The notes beneath the pieces were generated by a model, which saw only the letters and a program-made list of their open reading frames with translations, had not been told where the DNA came from and made no database searches. DNA of 64,000 bases from Lentilactobacillus sp. SPB1-3 (lineage in GTDB: Bacteria; Bacillota; Bacilli; Lactobacillales; Lactobacillaceae): positions 248,001-312,000 of the forward strand of contig NZ_CP168151.1 of assembly GCF_026913205.2 (NCBI RefSeq), read 5' to 3'. This document shows, piece after piece, positions 13,601 through 18,828 of this stretch. The position numbers were made by a program, and so were the translations under genes. Numbering within the stretch: the first letter of the stretch is position 1; the number at the start of each line of letters is the position of its first letter.

Positions 13601-13612
13601 CAGTATACGAAG

Positions 13613-13650
13613 AGAACTCCAATCAATCTTTGATTGGAGTTCTTTTTTTT
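13613..13650 (+). terminator. Terminator after the ClC gene
   Basis: AGAACTCCAATCAA pairs with TTGATTGGAGTTCT across a 4-base loop, followed by eight Ts. Confidence 0.92.
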
Positions 13651-13801: not shown

Positions 13802-13831
13802 TTGACTATAACGATTTGTGAAATGTATCAT
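13802..13831 (+). promoter_or_regulatory. Promoter of the fumC operon
   Basis: TTGACT (13802-13807) and TATCAT (13826-13831) are spaced by 18 bases. Transcription would start near 13838, which supports ATG 13874 rather than the in-frame codon at 13802 as the gene start. Confidence 0.6.
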
Positions 13832-13873
13832 TTGTCCATAATAAAGAAATCGCTCGAAAATGGAGGAGTCATC

Positions 13874-15256
13874 ATGACAGAATATCGTACTGAAGAAGAT
13901 ACATTAGGTCCAGTTCAAATCCCCGTAGACGCACTTTGGGGTGCCCAAACAGAACGTAGCCGCAACAACTTTCAAGCTGGTTCAAAGATGCCACTTGAAT
14001 TAATCAAAGCGTTGTTACAAATCAAAAAGGCTGCTGCTCAAGCCAATAAAGAAGAAAATACAATCGCTCCTGAAAAGGCTGACTTAATTATTGAAGCTAT
14101 CGATAAGTTATTAGCTCTTGATGATGAAGATATCCGCAAAGATTTTCCATTGGTAATTTACCAAACTGGTTCAGGAACTCAAACTAATATGAATACTAAC
14201 GAAGTGGTTGCTCATATGGCTGCTAAGATCAATCCTGAGATCGAAATTTTGCCTAATGATGACGTTAACCATGGTCAAAGTTCTAATGATATCTTCCCAA
14301 CGGCTATGAATATTACTGCAGCTGTTGCGGTTGAAAAATTAAAGGATGCAACCCAACATTTAATTGATGAATTAGATAAAAAACAAAAAGCATACTGGGA
14401 CGTTGTTAAAATTGGCCGTACCCATCTTCAAGATGCTGTTCCATTGACATTCGGCCAAGAAGTTAGTGGTTGGAAGAGTGCCTTAGAACATGATTTAGAA
14501 TACTTGAATGAATTAGCTCCAACCCTTCGTGAACTTGCAATGGGTGGAACTGCCGTTGGTACTGGTTTGAATGCTGCTCCTCATTTCTCAAAAATCATTG
14601 CTGAAAAGATGAGCGCTATTTACGGAATTGAATTCACTTCTGATTCAAACAAGTTCTACGGCCTTTCACATCACTCAGGTCTTAACGTTGTTCACGGTGC
14701 CTTTAAGACATTGGCCAGTGATTTGATGAAAATCGCTAACGATGTCCGTTTCTTAGGTAGTGGTCCTCGTGCCGGTTATGGTGAATTAAACTTGCCTGCA
14801 AACGAACCTGGTTCATCAATCATGCCTGGTAAAGTTAACCCAACTCAAGCCGAAGCAATTACTATGGCTGCCGCTCGAGTAATGGGTAACGATGTGACAG
14901 TTGATGTTGCATCAAGCCAAGGTAACTTTGAAATGAACGTTTATAAACCAGTATTGATCAGTGCCTTCTTAGAATCAGCTGAATTACTAGCTGGCACAGA
15001 AATCGGCTTTGCTGATCGGATGATCGCTGGGATGACTGTTAATGCAGAAAGAATGGCAGAATTAGTTGATAACTCATTGATGACTGTTACTGCATTGTCA
15101 CCACACATTGGTTACCACGAAAGTGCTGTAATTGCTCAACAAGCCCAAAAAGATGGTACTACTTTGAAAGAAGCAGCATTGAAGTCAGGCAAACTTACTG
15201 AAGAACAATTTGATGAGTGGGTTGTGCCAATCAACATGACTAATTACGATAAGTAA
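13874..15256 (+). CDS. fumC: Class II fumarate hydratase
   Basis: A 460-residue cytoplasmic enzyme interconverting L-malate and fumarate, normally a homotetramer. ATG 13874 follows TGGAGGAG. Motifs: SGSGTQTNMNTNEV, NHGQSSNDIFPTAMN, RTHLQDAVPLTFGQE and the fumarase/aspartase signature GSSIMPGKVNPTQ. It heads an operon with a fumarate-reductase-like flavoprotein 30 bases downstream, so its product fumarate is probably reduced to succinate, re-oxidising NAD(P)H in the incomplete reductive TCA branch of lactobacilli. Confidence 0.95.
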   Translation: MTEYRTEEDTLGPVQIPVDALWGAQTERSRNNFQAGSKMPLELIKALLQIKKAAAQANKEENTIAPEKADLIIEAIDKLLALDDEDIRKDFPLVIYQTGSGTQTNMNTNEVVAHMAAKINPEIEILPNDDVNHGQSSNDIFPTAMNITAAVAVEKLKDATQHLIDELDKKQKAYWDVVKIGRTHLQDAVPLTFGQEVSGWKSALEHDLEYLNELAPTLRELAMGGTAVGTGLNAAPHFSKIIAEKMSAIYGIEFTSDSNKFYGLSHHSGLNVVHGAFKTLASDLMKIANDVRFLGSGPRAGYGELNLPANEPGSSIMPGKVNPTQAEAITMAAARVMGNDVTVDVASSQGNFEMNVYKPVLISAFLESAELLAGTEIGFADRMIAGMTVNAERMAELVDNSLMTVTALSPHIGYHESAVIAQQAQKDGTTLKEAALKSGKLTEEQFDEWVVPINMTNYDK

Positions 15257-15286: not shown

Positions 15287-16678
15287 ATGGCTGAAAAATT
15301 TAGATTTAAACTAACTGATGTTAGTGAATTGCAAGAAAGCTATGATCTAGTAGTGATTGGTTCCGGTGCTGCTGGAATGACTAGTGCGATTCAAGCAAAA
15401 GAATTGGGATTAAACCCAATCATCTTAGAAAAGATGGACAAGCTGGGTGGAAATTCTACCAGAGCTTCTTCAGGAATGAACGCTGCTGAAACGTTGGTTC
15501 AACTAAAACACCATGTCGTTGATAGTTTCCAAGAATTTTATGATGAAACATTCATCGGTGGCGGTAAGATGAACAACACTGAGTTGTTACGCTACTTTGC
15601 TGACCACGCAGCATTATCGATTGATTGGTTAGCTGATCATGATATTCATTTAGATGATATTACGATTACTGGTGGGATGAGTAAAATGAGAACTCATCGT
15701 CCAGCCACATTGGCCCCAATCGGTGCATTCTTAGTTACCGAATTGTTAAAGCAAGTCCAAAAGCTAGGTATTCCACTATTTGCCGGTACTAAAGTTACTG
15801 AGTTAGAAAAAGACGCTGATGGCAAAGTTTCTGGAATGAAGGTTATGGCAAACGGTGAACCTAAACACATTGCTACTAAAGCGATTGTATTGGCCGCTGG
15901 AGGATTCGGTGCAAATCAAGAAATGTTAGCTCAATATCGTCCAGACCTTAAGGGTTACAAGACTACTAACCAAGATGGTGCTACTGGTGATGGTATTCGT
16001 TTGGCTGAAAAGCTGGGAGCTAAAGTTGTGGACATGGATCAAATTCAAGTTCACCCAACTGTCCAACAAGATAATCCACACACTTACTTAATTGGTGAGG
16101 CTGTTCGTGGTGAAGGTGCAATTCTGGTCAACAAAGCTGGTAAGCGATTCGTTAATGAGTTAAACACACGAAAGGTAGTATCTAATGCCATCGATGATCT
16201 TAATGAAGGCGGAGCTTACCTGGTGTTTGGCCAAGAAGTTCGTGATCGTGCAAAAGCGATTGATTTTTATGATTCAGTTGGATTAGTTAAAAGTGGTAAC
16301 ACAATTGAAGAAGTGGCAAAAACAACTGGTTTGGATGCCGCACAATTAGTTAAGACAGTTGCTAGCTGGAACAAGGCAGTCGCCGACCATAACGATACTG
16401 AATTTGGCAGAACAACAGGAATGGACCGACCAATGGAACAAGGACCATTCTCTACTATTCATATCGCACCAGCCGTTCATTACACAATGGGTGGTGTGGG
16501 GATTAATAAAGAAACTGAAGTATTAACTGATGATGATCAAATCATCCCAGGTTTGTATGCCTGTGGCGAAATCGTCGGTGGACTTCATGGTAATAACCGA
16601 ATTGGTGGTAACTCGATTGCTGAAACAGTTATCTTTGGCCGCCAAGCAGGACAACAAGTATTTAATTACTTGAAGTAA
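15287..16678 (+). CDS. Soluble fumarate reductase-like FAD flavoprotein
   Basis: A 463-residue flavoprotein of the FrdA/flavocytochrome c family. The FAD site is VVIGSGAAGMTSAIQAKELG (about residues 21-40). Active-site features of fumarate reductases are present: HPTVQ, GEAVRGEGAILVN (proton-donor Arg) and GGLHGNNRIGGNSIAET (substrate-binding His and Arg). It has no FMN-binding or heme domain and no signal peptide, so electrons must come from a partner. The two FMN-reductase genes directly downstream are the obvious donors. Fumarate is the likely substrate because of fumC; urocanate or hydroxycinnamates (compare the lactobacillar Hcr enzymes) are alternatives. Confidence 0.88.
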   Translation: MAEKFRFKLTDVSELQESYDLVVIGSGAAGMTSAIQAKELGLNPIILEKMDKLGGNSTRASSGMNAAETLVQLKHHVVDSFQEFYDETFIGGGKMNNTELLRYFADHAALSIDWLADHDIHLDDITITGGMSKMRTHRPATLAPIGAFLVTELLKQVQKLGIPLFAGTKVTELEKDADGKVSGMKVMANGEPKHIATKAIVLAAGGFGANQEMLAQYRPDLKGYKTTNQDGATGDGIRLAEKLGAKVVDMDQIQVHPTVQQDNPHTYLIGEAVRGEGAILVNKAGKRFVNELNTRKVVSNAIDDLNEGGAYLVFGQEVRDRAKAIDFYDSVGLVKSGNTIEEVAKTTGLDAAQLVKTVASWNKAVADHNDTEFGRTTGMDRPMEQGPFSTIHIAPAVHYTMGGVGINKETEVLTDDDQIIPGLYACGEIVGGLHGNNRIGGNSIAETVIFGRQAGQQVFNYLK

Positions 16679-16695
16679 TAAGAAGGAAGTAAAAC

Positions 16696-17322
16696 ATGAA
16701 AAAAATCGTTGCGATTGTGGGGTCAAATGCTGACCGGTCAACGAATCGACAATTACTTGAATATATTAAAAATCGCTATGCTAGTCAGGCAAACATTGAA
16801 TTAATGGAAGTCAGGGGACTACCAATTTTTCAAAAGACTCGGGATATGGTTATTCCTGATCAAGCAAAAGAGATGGCAAAGAAAATCAAAGAAGCAGATG
16901 GGGTAATCATTGCCACACCTGAATGGGATCATAGTATTCCCGCAATTCTGTCTAGTGCATTAGCTTGGTTGTCATATGGGGTTCATCCATTTATGGATAA
17001 ACCTGTAATGATCACTGGTGCATCTTTTGGAGCTCTTGGTACATCCAGAGCTCAAGCACAGTTACGACAAATACTTGATTCACCTGAACTTCAAGCTCGT
17101 ATCATGCCAAGTTCAGAATTCTTATTAAGTCACTCACTTAACGCCTTTGATAAGGAAGGCCAATTATTAGATGATGACCAAAACAAACGATTAGATTCAA
17201 TTTTTAATGACTTTTTGATCTTCATTGATGCTGAAGCCAAGCTCAGTCATACTTATGCTGATGACTTAAGAAGACGTAATGAGATTGATGTTGACTACGG
17301 TACTGCTGAAGTCGGAAAGTAG
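16696..17322 (+). CDS. NAD(P)H-dependent FMN reductase
   Basis: A 208-residue flavodoxin-fold protein. IVAIVGSNADRSTNRQLL binds the FMN phosphate, and ATPEWDHSIPAILSSALAWL is the typical second segment of the NADPH-dependent FMN reductase family. It lies 17 bases after the fumarate-reductase-like gene and 12 bases before a longer paralogue whose first 180 residues resemble it. It probably passes electrons from NAD(P)H to the reductase system. No tail motifs are present in this copy. Confidence 0.88.
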   Translation: MKKIVAIVGSNADRSTNRQLLEYIKNRYASQANIELMEVRGLPIFQKTRDMVIPDQAKEMAKKIKEADGVIIATPEWDHSIPAILSSALAWLSYGVHPFMDKPVMITGASFGALGTSRAQAQLRQILDSPELQARIMPSSEFLLSHSLNAFDKEGQLLDDDQNKRLDSIFNDFLIFIDAEAKLSHTYADDLRRRNEIDVDYGTAEVGK

Positions 17323-17334
17323 GTGGGTGGAATT

Positions 17335-18780
17335 ATGATTAAACTAGTAGCGATTGCCGGATCGATCGGCGAACAATCTTATAACAGAGAATTGTTGCAA
17401 TTCATTTCTAAACATTATAGTAATTTGGTAAATATTGAATTGGTCAGCATTAATGACTTACCCGTATTTAATCCAGATAAAGATGTTAGTGACAGTGAAG
17501 CAGTTCAAAGTGTGTACCAAAAACTCAAGGGTGCTCAAGGAGTTATCTTAGCAACCCCCGAGCATAATCATTCGGTTCCAGCCGCATTGAAGAACTTGGT
17601 GGAATGGATGTCATTTAATTTACATCCGCTAGAGGGGAAACCAGTTTGGATAGTTGGTGCTTCATACCATAACCAAGGATCTTCAAGAGCTCAACTTCAT
17701 TTGAAGCAAATCTTGGAAGCTCCAGGTGTCGACGCATTAGTCATGCCTGGTGATGAATTCTTGTTATCAAATGCCAAGGAAGCATTTGATGATGAAGGTA
17801 ATTTAAAGGATGCCAGAACAATTGGTTTCTTAGATAAACTAATTCATAAATTTTTGAAATACGTTAAGGTGATTGATTTGTTTGATGCTCCAGATCCACT
17901 AACAGTTGATGATGAAGATTTAGACGCAACTGGTAGAGTTAACACCACGATTGATGGTGTTGATATGAATGATGACCAGTGGGTTGAAAAGGCTGCTGCC
18001 AAAGTACACGCCGTTGATGGTAGTACTTACGTTAAATTAGATCGCGGAATTTTAACAGTCGATCAATTAAACTACTTTTTGAAGACTATGCCAGCTGAGC
18101 TCACGTTTGCTGATGATAATAATCAATTTATCTATTACAACCAAAGCTTACCAACTCGTAAAATGTTAGCTCCTCGTCGTCCTGAACAGGTTGGTGATCC
18201 ATTGTCATCTGTTCACCCTGACAGAGCAGTTGAACATGTTAAACAAGTGATTCATGCACTAAGAACTGGAGAATCAGATTTGGTTGGTATGCCAGTTCCT
18301 GGTAATGGACCAGACAAGCACATCATGCATTACTATAAAGCCATGCGTGATGAAAACGGTAGATATCGTGGAATTAATGAATGGGTTCTAGATATCATGC
18401 CAATTGTTAAATATTACCTTGAAACTACCGGTCAAAAGTTGGTTGTCGATGAGAATCAACAACCTGTACCGCCTATCTTTGGATTAGATTTAGATGCATC
18501 GACAGGCGCCTCTGTTCATGAAACAGTGGCAACACCTAAGGCTGATGCCTCAACAGGTGCTTCTGAAGATGCAGCGCCTGCAGCATCAACTGAGAATGAA
18601 ACTCCAGTTGATGACGAAGTTGGAATTGAAATTAGTGCATTGTTAAACTCTGGTAGTAATGTTGCTACTGAAGGTGTGCAACCAAAAGAAGTGACTGTAA
18701 ATGTTGCAAAAGATGCTAAACCAAATGAATCAAACAATAACCCTTTTACTGATGCATCAACAGGAGCATCAGAAAGTTAG
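17335..18780 (+). CDS. FMN reductase-PAS-like protein with three flavinylation motifs
   Basis: A 481-residue cytoplasmic protein; ATG 17335 follows AGGTGGGTGG. Residues 1 to about 185 are an NAD(P)H-dependent FMN reductase domain (VAIAGSIGEQSYNRELLQF, ATPEHNHSVPAALKNLVEW). Residues about 235-365 resemble the PAS domain of DUF438-type proteins (MPAELTFADDNNQFIYYN, HYYKAMRDENGRYRGINEW). The tail from about 380 is Ala/Ser/Thr/Asp/Glu-rich and holds three identical DASTGAS heptapeptides at 387-393, 404-410 and 473-479. These fit DxxS/TGAS/T, the sequence to which ApbE attaches FMN. I infer a soluble electron carrier that takes hydride at its reductase domain and delivers it by tail-bound FMN to the fumarate-reductase-like protein. 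No apbE gene is in the window. Confidence 0.85.
   Translation: MIKLVAIAGSIGEQSYNRELLQFISKHYSNLVNIELVSINDLPVFNPDKDVSDSEAVQSVYQKLKGAQGVILATPEHNHSVPAALKNLVEWMSFNLHPLEGKPVWIVGASYHNQGSSRAQLHLKQILEAPGVDALVMPGDEFLLSNAKEAFDDEGNLKDARTIGFLDKLIHKFLKYVKVIDLFDAPDPLTVDDEDLDATGRVNTTIDGVDMNDDQWVEKAAAKVHAVDGSTYVKLDRGILTVDQLNYFLKTMPAELTFADDNNQFIYYNQSLPTRKMLAPRRPEQVGDPLSSVHPDRAVEHVKQVIHALRTGESDLVGMPVPGNGPDKHIMHYYKAMRDENGRYRGINEWVLDIMPIVKYYLETTGQKLVVDENQQPVPPIFGLDLDASTGASVHETVATPKADASTGASEDAAPAASTENETPVDDEVGIEISALLNSGSNVATEGVQPKEVTVNVAKDAKPNESNNNPFTDASTGASES
18493..18771 (+). repeat. Three DASTGAS-encoding repeats (predicted FMN attachment sites)
   Basis: The three 21-base units are at 18493-18513, 18544-18564 and 18751-18771. 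All give the same seven residues but with different codons for Ala, Ser, Thr and Gly, so the repeat is kept at protein level and not by recent DNA duplication. Confidence 0.85.
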
Positions 18781-18786
18781 TTAAGT

Positions 18787-18822
18787 AAAAACCGATTAGA
18801 GATAATTTCTAATCGGTTTTTT
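18787..18822 (+). terminator. Terminator of the fumC operon
   Basis: AAAACCGATTAGA pairs with TCTAATCGGTTTT, followed by further Ts, six bases after the stop codon. Confidence 0.9.
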
Positions 18823-18828
18823 GTAACT

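Follow-up and report, generated by a model that had tools for sequence, protein, structure and literature searches.

What does a cytosolic FMN reductase do with a tail that carries three copies of the signal by which ApbE attaches FMN? The first-pass annotation of the window, i.e. the whole stretch of 64,000 nucleotides of Lentilactobacillus sp. SPB1-3 DNA analysed here, had reported DASTGAS at residues 387, 404 and 473 of a reading frame at 17335-18780, and had proposed that its product, encoded directly after a fumarate-reductase-like gene, is a flexible flavin relay of a new kind. According to the accessible text of PMC12052999, the seven-residue motif D-x-x-[ST]-G-A-[ST] suffices for flavinylation and works best at the termini, FMN is attached at its last Ser/Thr, and cytosolic ApbEs exist. 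The features on which the argument rests are as follows.

13802..15256, + strand: fumC, fumarase C, first gene of the set (Pfam Lyase_1, 3.7e-95; FumaraseC_C, 1e-21)
15287..16678, + strand: FAD-only fumarate-reductase-like flavoprotein (frd), 463 aa (Pfam FAD_binding_2, 3.7e-86, residues 20-444)
16696..17322, + strand: first FMN_red protein, 208 aa, without PAS or tail (Pfam FMN_red, 3.2e-34)
17335..18780, + strand: FMN_red, PAS_10 and multi-motif tail protein, 481 aa
18487..18777, + strand: tail, predicted disordered, residues 385-481 (~97 residues; AlphaFold2 pLDDT <50 throughout)
18493..18513, + strand: DASTGAS copy 1, residues 387-393
18544..18564, + strand: DASTGAS copy 2, residues 404-410
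18622..18684, + strand: tail segment GIEISALLNSGSNVATEGVQP, residues 430-450, candidate docking element
18751..18771, + strand: DASTGAS copy 3, residues 473-479

An FMN reductase with a PAS domain and a motif-bearing tail

The ATG at 17335 and the stop through 18780 delimit the reading frame just where the annotation had placed it, and the three motif positions, counted from that ATG, were verified; an in-frame GTG at 17323 is an alternative start that would add four residues. The FMN reductase and PAS-like domains said to precede the tail were recovered as FMN_red at residues 2-148 (Pfam, 2.8e-35) and PAS_10 at residues 245-354 (Pfam, 1.5e-27). The tail itself has no Pfam match, FMN_bind is absent from the protein (Pfam scan, E <= 0.1), no NCBIfam family scores above its cut-off, and no export signal was found by our criterion, FMN_red beginning at residue 2. 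In an AlphaFold2 model from a 25-row alignment (mean pLDDT 75, pTM 0.47), the FMN_red and PAS folds were modelled confidently; Foldseek grouped the first with 1rtt and ChrR/FerB enzymes and matched the second to 2qkp, the C-terminal domain of Streptococcus mutans SMU_1151c. Across the tail, which holds all three motifs, the ten-residue pLDDT means were mostly 28-35.

When the 111-residue tail was shuffled 200,000 times, D..[ST]GA[ST] appeared once in 657 cases, twice in 1 and three times in 0; a chance origin of the three motifs is thereby excluded, and the idea that they are chance repeats was rejected. The copies differ in their synonymous codons, from which the annotation had argued for selection on the protein, and comparison with Lentilactobacillus kosonis bears this out: the 21 motif codons show no amino-acid change and 12 synonymous changes, against 34 amino-acid changes in the other 90 aligned tail codons (Fisher p = 3.4e-4). 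With 0/21 changes in the motifs and 34/90 elsewhere in the tail, the codon comparison indicates selection on the motifs at the protein level. In Paucilactobacillus oligofermentans the middle copy is a degenerate DSFKSAS. Over the whole 1.93-Mb genome, a DAxTGAx-type DNA pattern has four matches (reversed control, 0), three of them in the 481-aa protein and the fourth in a second PAS_10 protein. Five single sites, scattered over the genome, join these four when the pattern is widened to D..[ST]GA[ST]; because the nine matches so obtained compare with eight in the control, the single sites outside the two PAS_10 proteins are at chance level.

Between copies 2 and 3 lies GIEISALLNSGSNVATEGVQP, which is identical to the window at 20/21 positions in L. 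kosonis and at 17/21 in P. oligofermentans, while the tail without motifs and this segment is identical at 36/69 and 19/63, respectively. Among 253 sequences (many redundant) the pattern of GIEISALLNSGSNVATEGVQP was found only in the window, these two species and their duplicate loci, in a scan by pattern that diverged copies would escape. The three species with the segment share the fumC-frd gene order. It is absent by pattern from Paucilactobacillus nenjiangensis, a congener of P. oligofermentans, in whose 13.9-kb locus there is no frd. This distribution may stem from a single inheritance.

ApbE in the genome and among relatives

The annotation had taken the absence of apbE from the genome as the finding that would speak against a flavinylated tail. 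One ApbE is encoded, at C1:211119-211934 (E 1.8e-69; PF02424, 3.6e-69), ~53 kb from the 17335-18780 gene. It aligns at 9.8e-57 to 7esa, an FAD:protein FMN transferase that we take to be the Listeria-type FmnB, through the SIVTSG-YER and YHHI-D stretches; its N-terminus is not hydrophobic (maximum 15-residue mean 0.71), and the enzyme is apparently cytosolic. Its gene is followed by that of the second PAS_10 protein.

L049:1273-1869, same strand as apbE, same genome (C1) outside the window: second PAS_10 protein, 198 aa, 15 bases after apbE

This protein ends DASTGASDSWLS, containing DASTGAS, and is a candidate for a stand-alone flavin carrier. PAS_10 has only two matches in the genome (E <= 0.001), and FMN_bind, the usual ApbE target, has none in the whole genome at the same threshold; since the target class searched is lacking, the two PAS_10 proteins are the evident candidate targets of ApbE.

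We then have the relatives. Of 42 named related loci, extending up to 6 kb per side and less at contig ends, 40 have a PAS protein, and in 35 of the 40 it carries the strict D..[ST]GA[ST] motif; the five without are those of Scardovia, Secundilactobacillus kimchicus, two Limosilactobacillus and a broken copy in S. similis. An apbE gene is present in 20 of the 42, in 17 of them ahead of the FMN_red pair by no more than 150 bases. A 30-locus set gave 26 loci with a recognised frame, 20 of these with the strict motif.

A family survey covered 201 genomes, of which, among the matches listed, 120 have ApbE and 94 have PAS_10; both are found in 89, PAS_10 only in 5, ApbE only in 31 and neither in 76, a co-occurrence with Fisher p = 1.2e-23 when kinship is ignored. 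The PAS_10-positive genomes yielded 149 distinct PAS proteins (duplicates merged) from 91 of the 94, again among the matches listed; the genomes outside the protein set are L194, which gave none, G059 and G168. Architectures were assigned by BLAST matches and length classes, not by a Pfam scan of each protein. Among the matches listed, the strict motif is present in 48 of 58 FMN_red-PAS proteins, in 0 to 6 copies, which is the comparison of motif numbers across homologues that the annotation had suggested, and in 32 of the 38 PAS proteins that are 160-389 aa long and have no FMN_red match, some of which may be pieces of split genes. It is found, by the same matches, in 0/32 PAS proteins of at least 390 aa without FMN_red, one of which is DUF438-Hemerythrin-PAS by Pfam, and in 0/21 of less than 160 aa. 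The motif was thus rejected as a general trait of PAS_10 (0/53 long or short PAS_10 proteins without FMN_red, among the matches listed), and the reversed motif occurs in 0/149 of the PAS proteins so listed.

All 80 motif-bearing PAS proteins among the matches listed come from ApbE-positive genomes. Counted by genome, ApbE is present in 67/67 with a motif-bearing PAS_10 protein versus 53/134 others (p = 3.2e-20; matches listed, kinship ignored), and of the 120 ApbE-positive genomes the 16 with weak matches only (E 1e-4 to 1e-15) include none that is motif-bearing among the matches listed. In 10 of the 58 FMN_red-PAS proteins listed, all from ApbE-positive genomes, the strict motif is replaced by degenerate repeats such as DAVSSAS and DASASAS, for which either relaxed ApbE specificity or decay would account. 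A relaxed pattern, D..[STA][GSA]A[ST], occurs in 58/58 of the listed FMN_red-PAS proteins and, having no shuffled null, was not counted as evidence. With an ApbE present, no FMN_bind target in the genome and so strong a co-occurrence of motif and enzyme, the tail is very likely flavinylated by ApbE, as the annotation had it, the attachment itself being the predicted step.

The fumarate gene set

The set starts with fumC, whose listed start is a TTG (the Pfam scan ran from the ATG at 13874), just downstream of a terminator-like hairpin at 13609-13647. Orthologues of fumC also precede frd in L. kosonis (97% identity) and P. oligofermentans (86%). The 463-aa flavoprotein has neither FMN_bind (Pfam, E <= 0.1), in agreement with the claim that it lacks an FMN domain of its own, nor a haem domain; NCBIfam places it above cut-off in PRK06481, flavocytochrome c. 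Its best PDB match is the flavocytochrome c fumarate reductase 1d4c (4.3e-100), in the flavin domain (target residues 123-568), and the alignment spans the QVHPT, EAVRGEG, PAVHYTMGG and NNRIGGNS stretches, which presumably contain the catalytic residues of fumarate reductase. Yeast fumarate reductase 2 (5glg) is matched at 4.4e-67. That yeast enzyme accepts electrons from reduced free flavin, and by analogy a tethered FMN could stand in for free flavin as the donor.

The 481-aa protein is not encoded directly after the flavoprotein, since the first FMN_red gene at 16696-17322, which the annotation omitted, intervenes. Its 208-aa product is likely the heterodimer partner subunit of the 481-aa protein: 38/40 PAS-bearing named loci have a relative ahead of the PAS protein, the other two being cut by a contig end or having the PAS part only. 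In L. kosonis the gene order is fumC-frd-DASS transporter-nfrA-nfrB, and P. oligofermentans has this order too, with a LysR gene ahead of nfrA and with apbE following nfrB. Unlike in these two, the frd/nfrA gap of the window (16679-16695) holds no DASS transporter; the one DASS-family member of the genome is at C1:482872-484266.

A window-type fumarate reductase is present in only 2/40 PAS-bearing named loci (<=6 kb per side). Genome-wide, and among the matches listed, a fumarate reductase match is found in 52/67 motif-bearing genomes versus 51/134 others, with no match (E <= 1e-60) in 15/67 motif-bearing genomes. The 2/40 loci and the 15/67 genomes without a match imply that the window-type fumarate reductase is not the general acceptor. 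It lies within 15 kb of ApbE in 18/73 genomes with both located (among the matches listed; in one of the 18 the copy is 39% identical and 13.5 kb distant). It is close to PAS in 7 genomes, from 31 PAS places of which six were picked as already seen close, so that this figure gives no rate. Two further relatives, L041 and L042, are fused FMN_red-FMN_bind-FAD_binding_2 proteins whose middle, folded FMN_bind carries DVISGAS; by their domain content, they have in one protein what appears to be the same cofactor chain as the gene set of the window.

Relation to known flavinylated systems

FMN_red proteins associated with apbE and having one to two C-terminal motifs were described by Huang et al. 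(2024, PMC11334425), where gels showed the proteins of Lactococcus lactis and L. taiwanensis to be flavinylated by the cognate ApbE in a Ser/Thr-dependent manner. FMN_red and a motif-bearing C-terminal extension are common to these and to the 481-aa protein; the Lactococcus proteins have one to two motifs in an unstructured extension, whereas the 481-aa protein has three motifs. The Lactococcus genes are associated with apbE, which lies in the locus in 20 of the 42 named loci and ~53 kb away in SPB1-3. A PAS domain or a fumarate reductase partner is not mentioned for the Lactococcus proteins, WP_021723379.1 included, in the accessible text of that paper. Plasmids of Lactococcus lactis and Lacticaseibacillus paracasei (L250, L251 and L252) bear apbE-FMN_red-FMN_red-PAS cassettes, in the same order of apbE before the FMN_red pair as in the 17 named loci; in L. 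lactis a Crp/Fnr regulator gene lies upstream of the cassettes, and the PAS protein WP_011915228.1 has two motifs. As an L. lactis plasmid combines this gene order with two motifs, the family of PMC11334425 very probably overlaps the PAS-FMN_red family.

A second published relative is FRedA/B of Lactobacillus johnsonii, an NADH-oxidising heterodimer with FMN as acceptor and H2O2 as product (Valladares et al. 2015, PMC4500961). Two adjacent FMN_red genes and a PAS_10 module are found both there and in the window, the PAS being a separate protein, LjPAS, in L. johnsonii and fused to FMN_red in the window; the same paper noted that other lactic acid bacteria have relatives of LjPAS as fusions with FMN reductase. 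The accessible text of PMC4500961 contains none of the terms flavinylat-, covalent and ApbE, yet the LjPAS reverse primer printed there, translated by eye, gives an SGASEY end. Among seven fetched copies of LjPAS-like proteins from genus g37, presumably Lactobacillus, five have three motifs, one has two and one has none. The stand-alone proteins of L140, L141, L144, L147 and L149 have three motifs, the last of them two residues before the C-terminus (SGASEY). Further short PAS_10-like proteins of the genus (L195-L199; 178-182 aa) end in DAESGASEL; because they co-exist with the former in the same genus, there may be several putative flavin carriers per cell. LjPAS, published as a 'regulator', may itself be a flavin carrier. 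E. coli ApbE is exported. For this reason, LjPAS as studied in PMC4500961 was probably unmodified.

Other systems share single traits. HcrA/HcrB, the hydroxycinnamate reductase of Lactiplantibacillus plantarum (PMC10295242), the L041 and L042 proteins, which are HcrB-like to judge from their architecture, and the window all have an FMN_red pair feeding an FAD_binding_2 reductase, in the window by prediction. L041 and L042 do so in a single chain with a folded FMN_bind, whereas the window has PAS, a predicted disordered tail and FAD_binding_2 on a separate gene; with separate genes and no FMN_bind, the window protein was rejected as an HcrB-type member. Vibrio-type cinnamate or acrylate reductases with ApbE have reportedly been covered by earlier work. 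Several predicted covalent FMNs per chain are common to the window tail and the multi-flavinylated proteins that Meheust et al. (2021, PMC8238504) treat, in the text accessible, as extracytosolic; those have repeated folded FMN-bind domains outside the cytosol, in contrast to bare seven-residue sites in a disordered tail, and membership was rejected, no FMN_bind and no export signal being seen. Klebsiella pneumoniae has, as is predicted for SPB1-3, a cytosolic ApbE with a soluble fumarate-reducing system (PMC12052999); there, FMN is on the reductase itself, whereas in the window it is proposed to be on the NAD(P)H-oxidising partner. What is accessible of PMC13101492 and PMC8965153 has no bearing on the tail.

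The novelty claimed for the arrangement must therefore be reduced: the principle, a flavinylated FMN_red with a motif tail, was already published in 2024, and the fusion to PAS had been remarked on in 2015. What is added to the published family is the PAS linkage, the number of sites (0-6 strict), the stand-alone carriers and the fumarate gene set. In the literature searched, mostly non-subscription, we found neither PAS-FMN reductases flavinylated at several sites nor a PAS-linked disordered tail in the cytosol that carries flavin at several sites. Nor did the same literature report stand-alone PAS-tail carriers of the LjPAS type or a fumC-frd-(DASS)-nfrA-nfrB set whose reductase lacks an FMN or haem domain.

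A proposed relay and its alternatives

It can be hypothesized that the gene set encodes a soluble, cytosolic electron-transfer system. The 16696-17322 protein would pair with the FMN_red domain of the 17335-18780 protein and the pair would oxidise NAD(P)H, the 481-aa protein probably taking its electrons from NADH. The cytosolic ApbE, encoded elsewhere, would put FMN on the last Ser of each DASTGAS, and the tethered FMNs, reduced at the FMN reductase site, would act as swinging arms and pass their electrons on to the FAD in the fumarate reductase of the same set. FumC would provide the fumarate, NAD+ would be regenerated anaerobically, and in the presence of oxygen the reduced flavins would yield H2O2 instead. 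The anatomy of the protein, its predicted disorder, the conservation, the presence and co-occurrence of ApbE and the gene neighbourhood are observed; from these we infer flavinylation, NADH as donor, subunit pairing and electron delivery to the fumarate reductase. This delivery is plausible because the reductase lacks FMN and haem domains, is part of the same gene set and has fused relatives, and the flavin relay of the annotation survives to this extent, against the 38/40 loci without the reductase nearby. We consider the full relay, from NADH over the FMN reductase pair and the tethered FMNs to fumarate reductase, moderately probable.

A more far-reaching proposal, which we put forward tentatively as a possibility short of an even chance, is that PAS_10 with a disordered tail of 1-6 ApbE sites, fused or stand-alone, serves lactic acid bacteria as a cytosolic swinging arm of covalent flavin that takes electrons from NADH to one acceptor or another (fumarate reductase, oxygen), that GIEISALLNSGSNVATEGVQP docks the tail on fumarate reductase in the lineage of the window, and that LjPAS is a carrier and not a regulator.

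The Lactococcus proteins were read differently in PMC11334425, namely as anchoring their cofactor, and in the present case the tail FMNs would likewise fold back into the FMN_red active sites and serve as fixed cofactor without any relay. Lactococcus models that put the motif extension near the flavin sites (PMC11334425), and the weak FMN binding of L. johnsonii FRedA/B (KD about 2 uM; PMC4500961), are consistent with this. However, up to 6 strict sites would have to serve the two flavin sites of such a heterodimer, the PAS domain stands between FMN_red and tail, and the motifs also occur in the 32/38 PAS proteins of 160-389 aa without FMN_red, among the matches listed and with some maybe split-gene pieces, so that we regard anchoring as unlikely.

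Alternatively, oxygen could be the main acceptor, in which case the system would be an NADH oxidase that carries flavinylation and produces H2O2, with the adjoining fumarate reductase as a separate enzyme. The H2O2 formed by L. johnsonii FRedA/B, the knock-out cited in PMC4500961 as abolishing H2O2 production, and the lack of a nearby fumarate reductase in most named loci all point this way. Against it stand the gene set with fumC and frd, joined by a DASS transporter in L. kosonis and P. oligofermentans, and the restriction of GIEISALLNSGSNVATEGVQP to species with the fumC-frd gene order; we think this reading improbable, and more so than anchoring.

PAS domains are commonly sensors, and the tethered flavins might signal the redox state to the PAS domain, which would then control the reductase, similar to what was proposed for LjPAS. 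Preincubation of FRedB with LjPAS did halve the initial rate of FRedA/B in vitro, but the effect was lost once the heterodimer had formed (PMC4500961), and a number of strict sites that varies from 0 to 6 fits a carrier better than a switch, which makes a sensor very improbable. Least credible of all is a plain linker, unmodified and with no more than a likeness to the motif, since the low complexity and predicted disorder of the tail and the degenerate repeats of some relatives are set against the shuffles, the codon conservation, the co-occurrence with ApbE and the published flavinylation of relatives.

If the relay holds true, the soluble fumarate reductases and peroxide-making flavin reductases of lactic acid bacteria would gain a defined electron carrier, multi-flavinylation would not be solely extracytosolic, and the LjPAS 'regulator' would become a testable flavin carrier. 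As the 481-aa protein has a match in 135/295 genomes of the order (E <= 1e-60; some to the FMN_red or the PAS part alone), this would be relevant to redox balance and to H2O2 output in fermentation and microbiota.

Around the genes themselves, a promoter scan gave 10 sites versus 16.7 expected from shuffling, i.e. no excess, and a hairpin downstream, near 18790-18825, was seen by eye and is absent from the list of the tool. Motif layout varies among the relatives: in three Aerococcaceae (L033, L034 and L043) an FMN_red protein, 882-894 residues long, contains three PAS_10 stretches and has three to four strict motifs spread over its length, and the short PAS proteins adjoining apbE in L161, L167 and L187 have five motifs within ~80 residues near the C-terminus and a common ending, G-P-F-x-Y-D-L.
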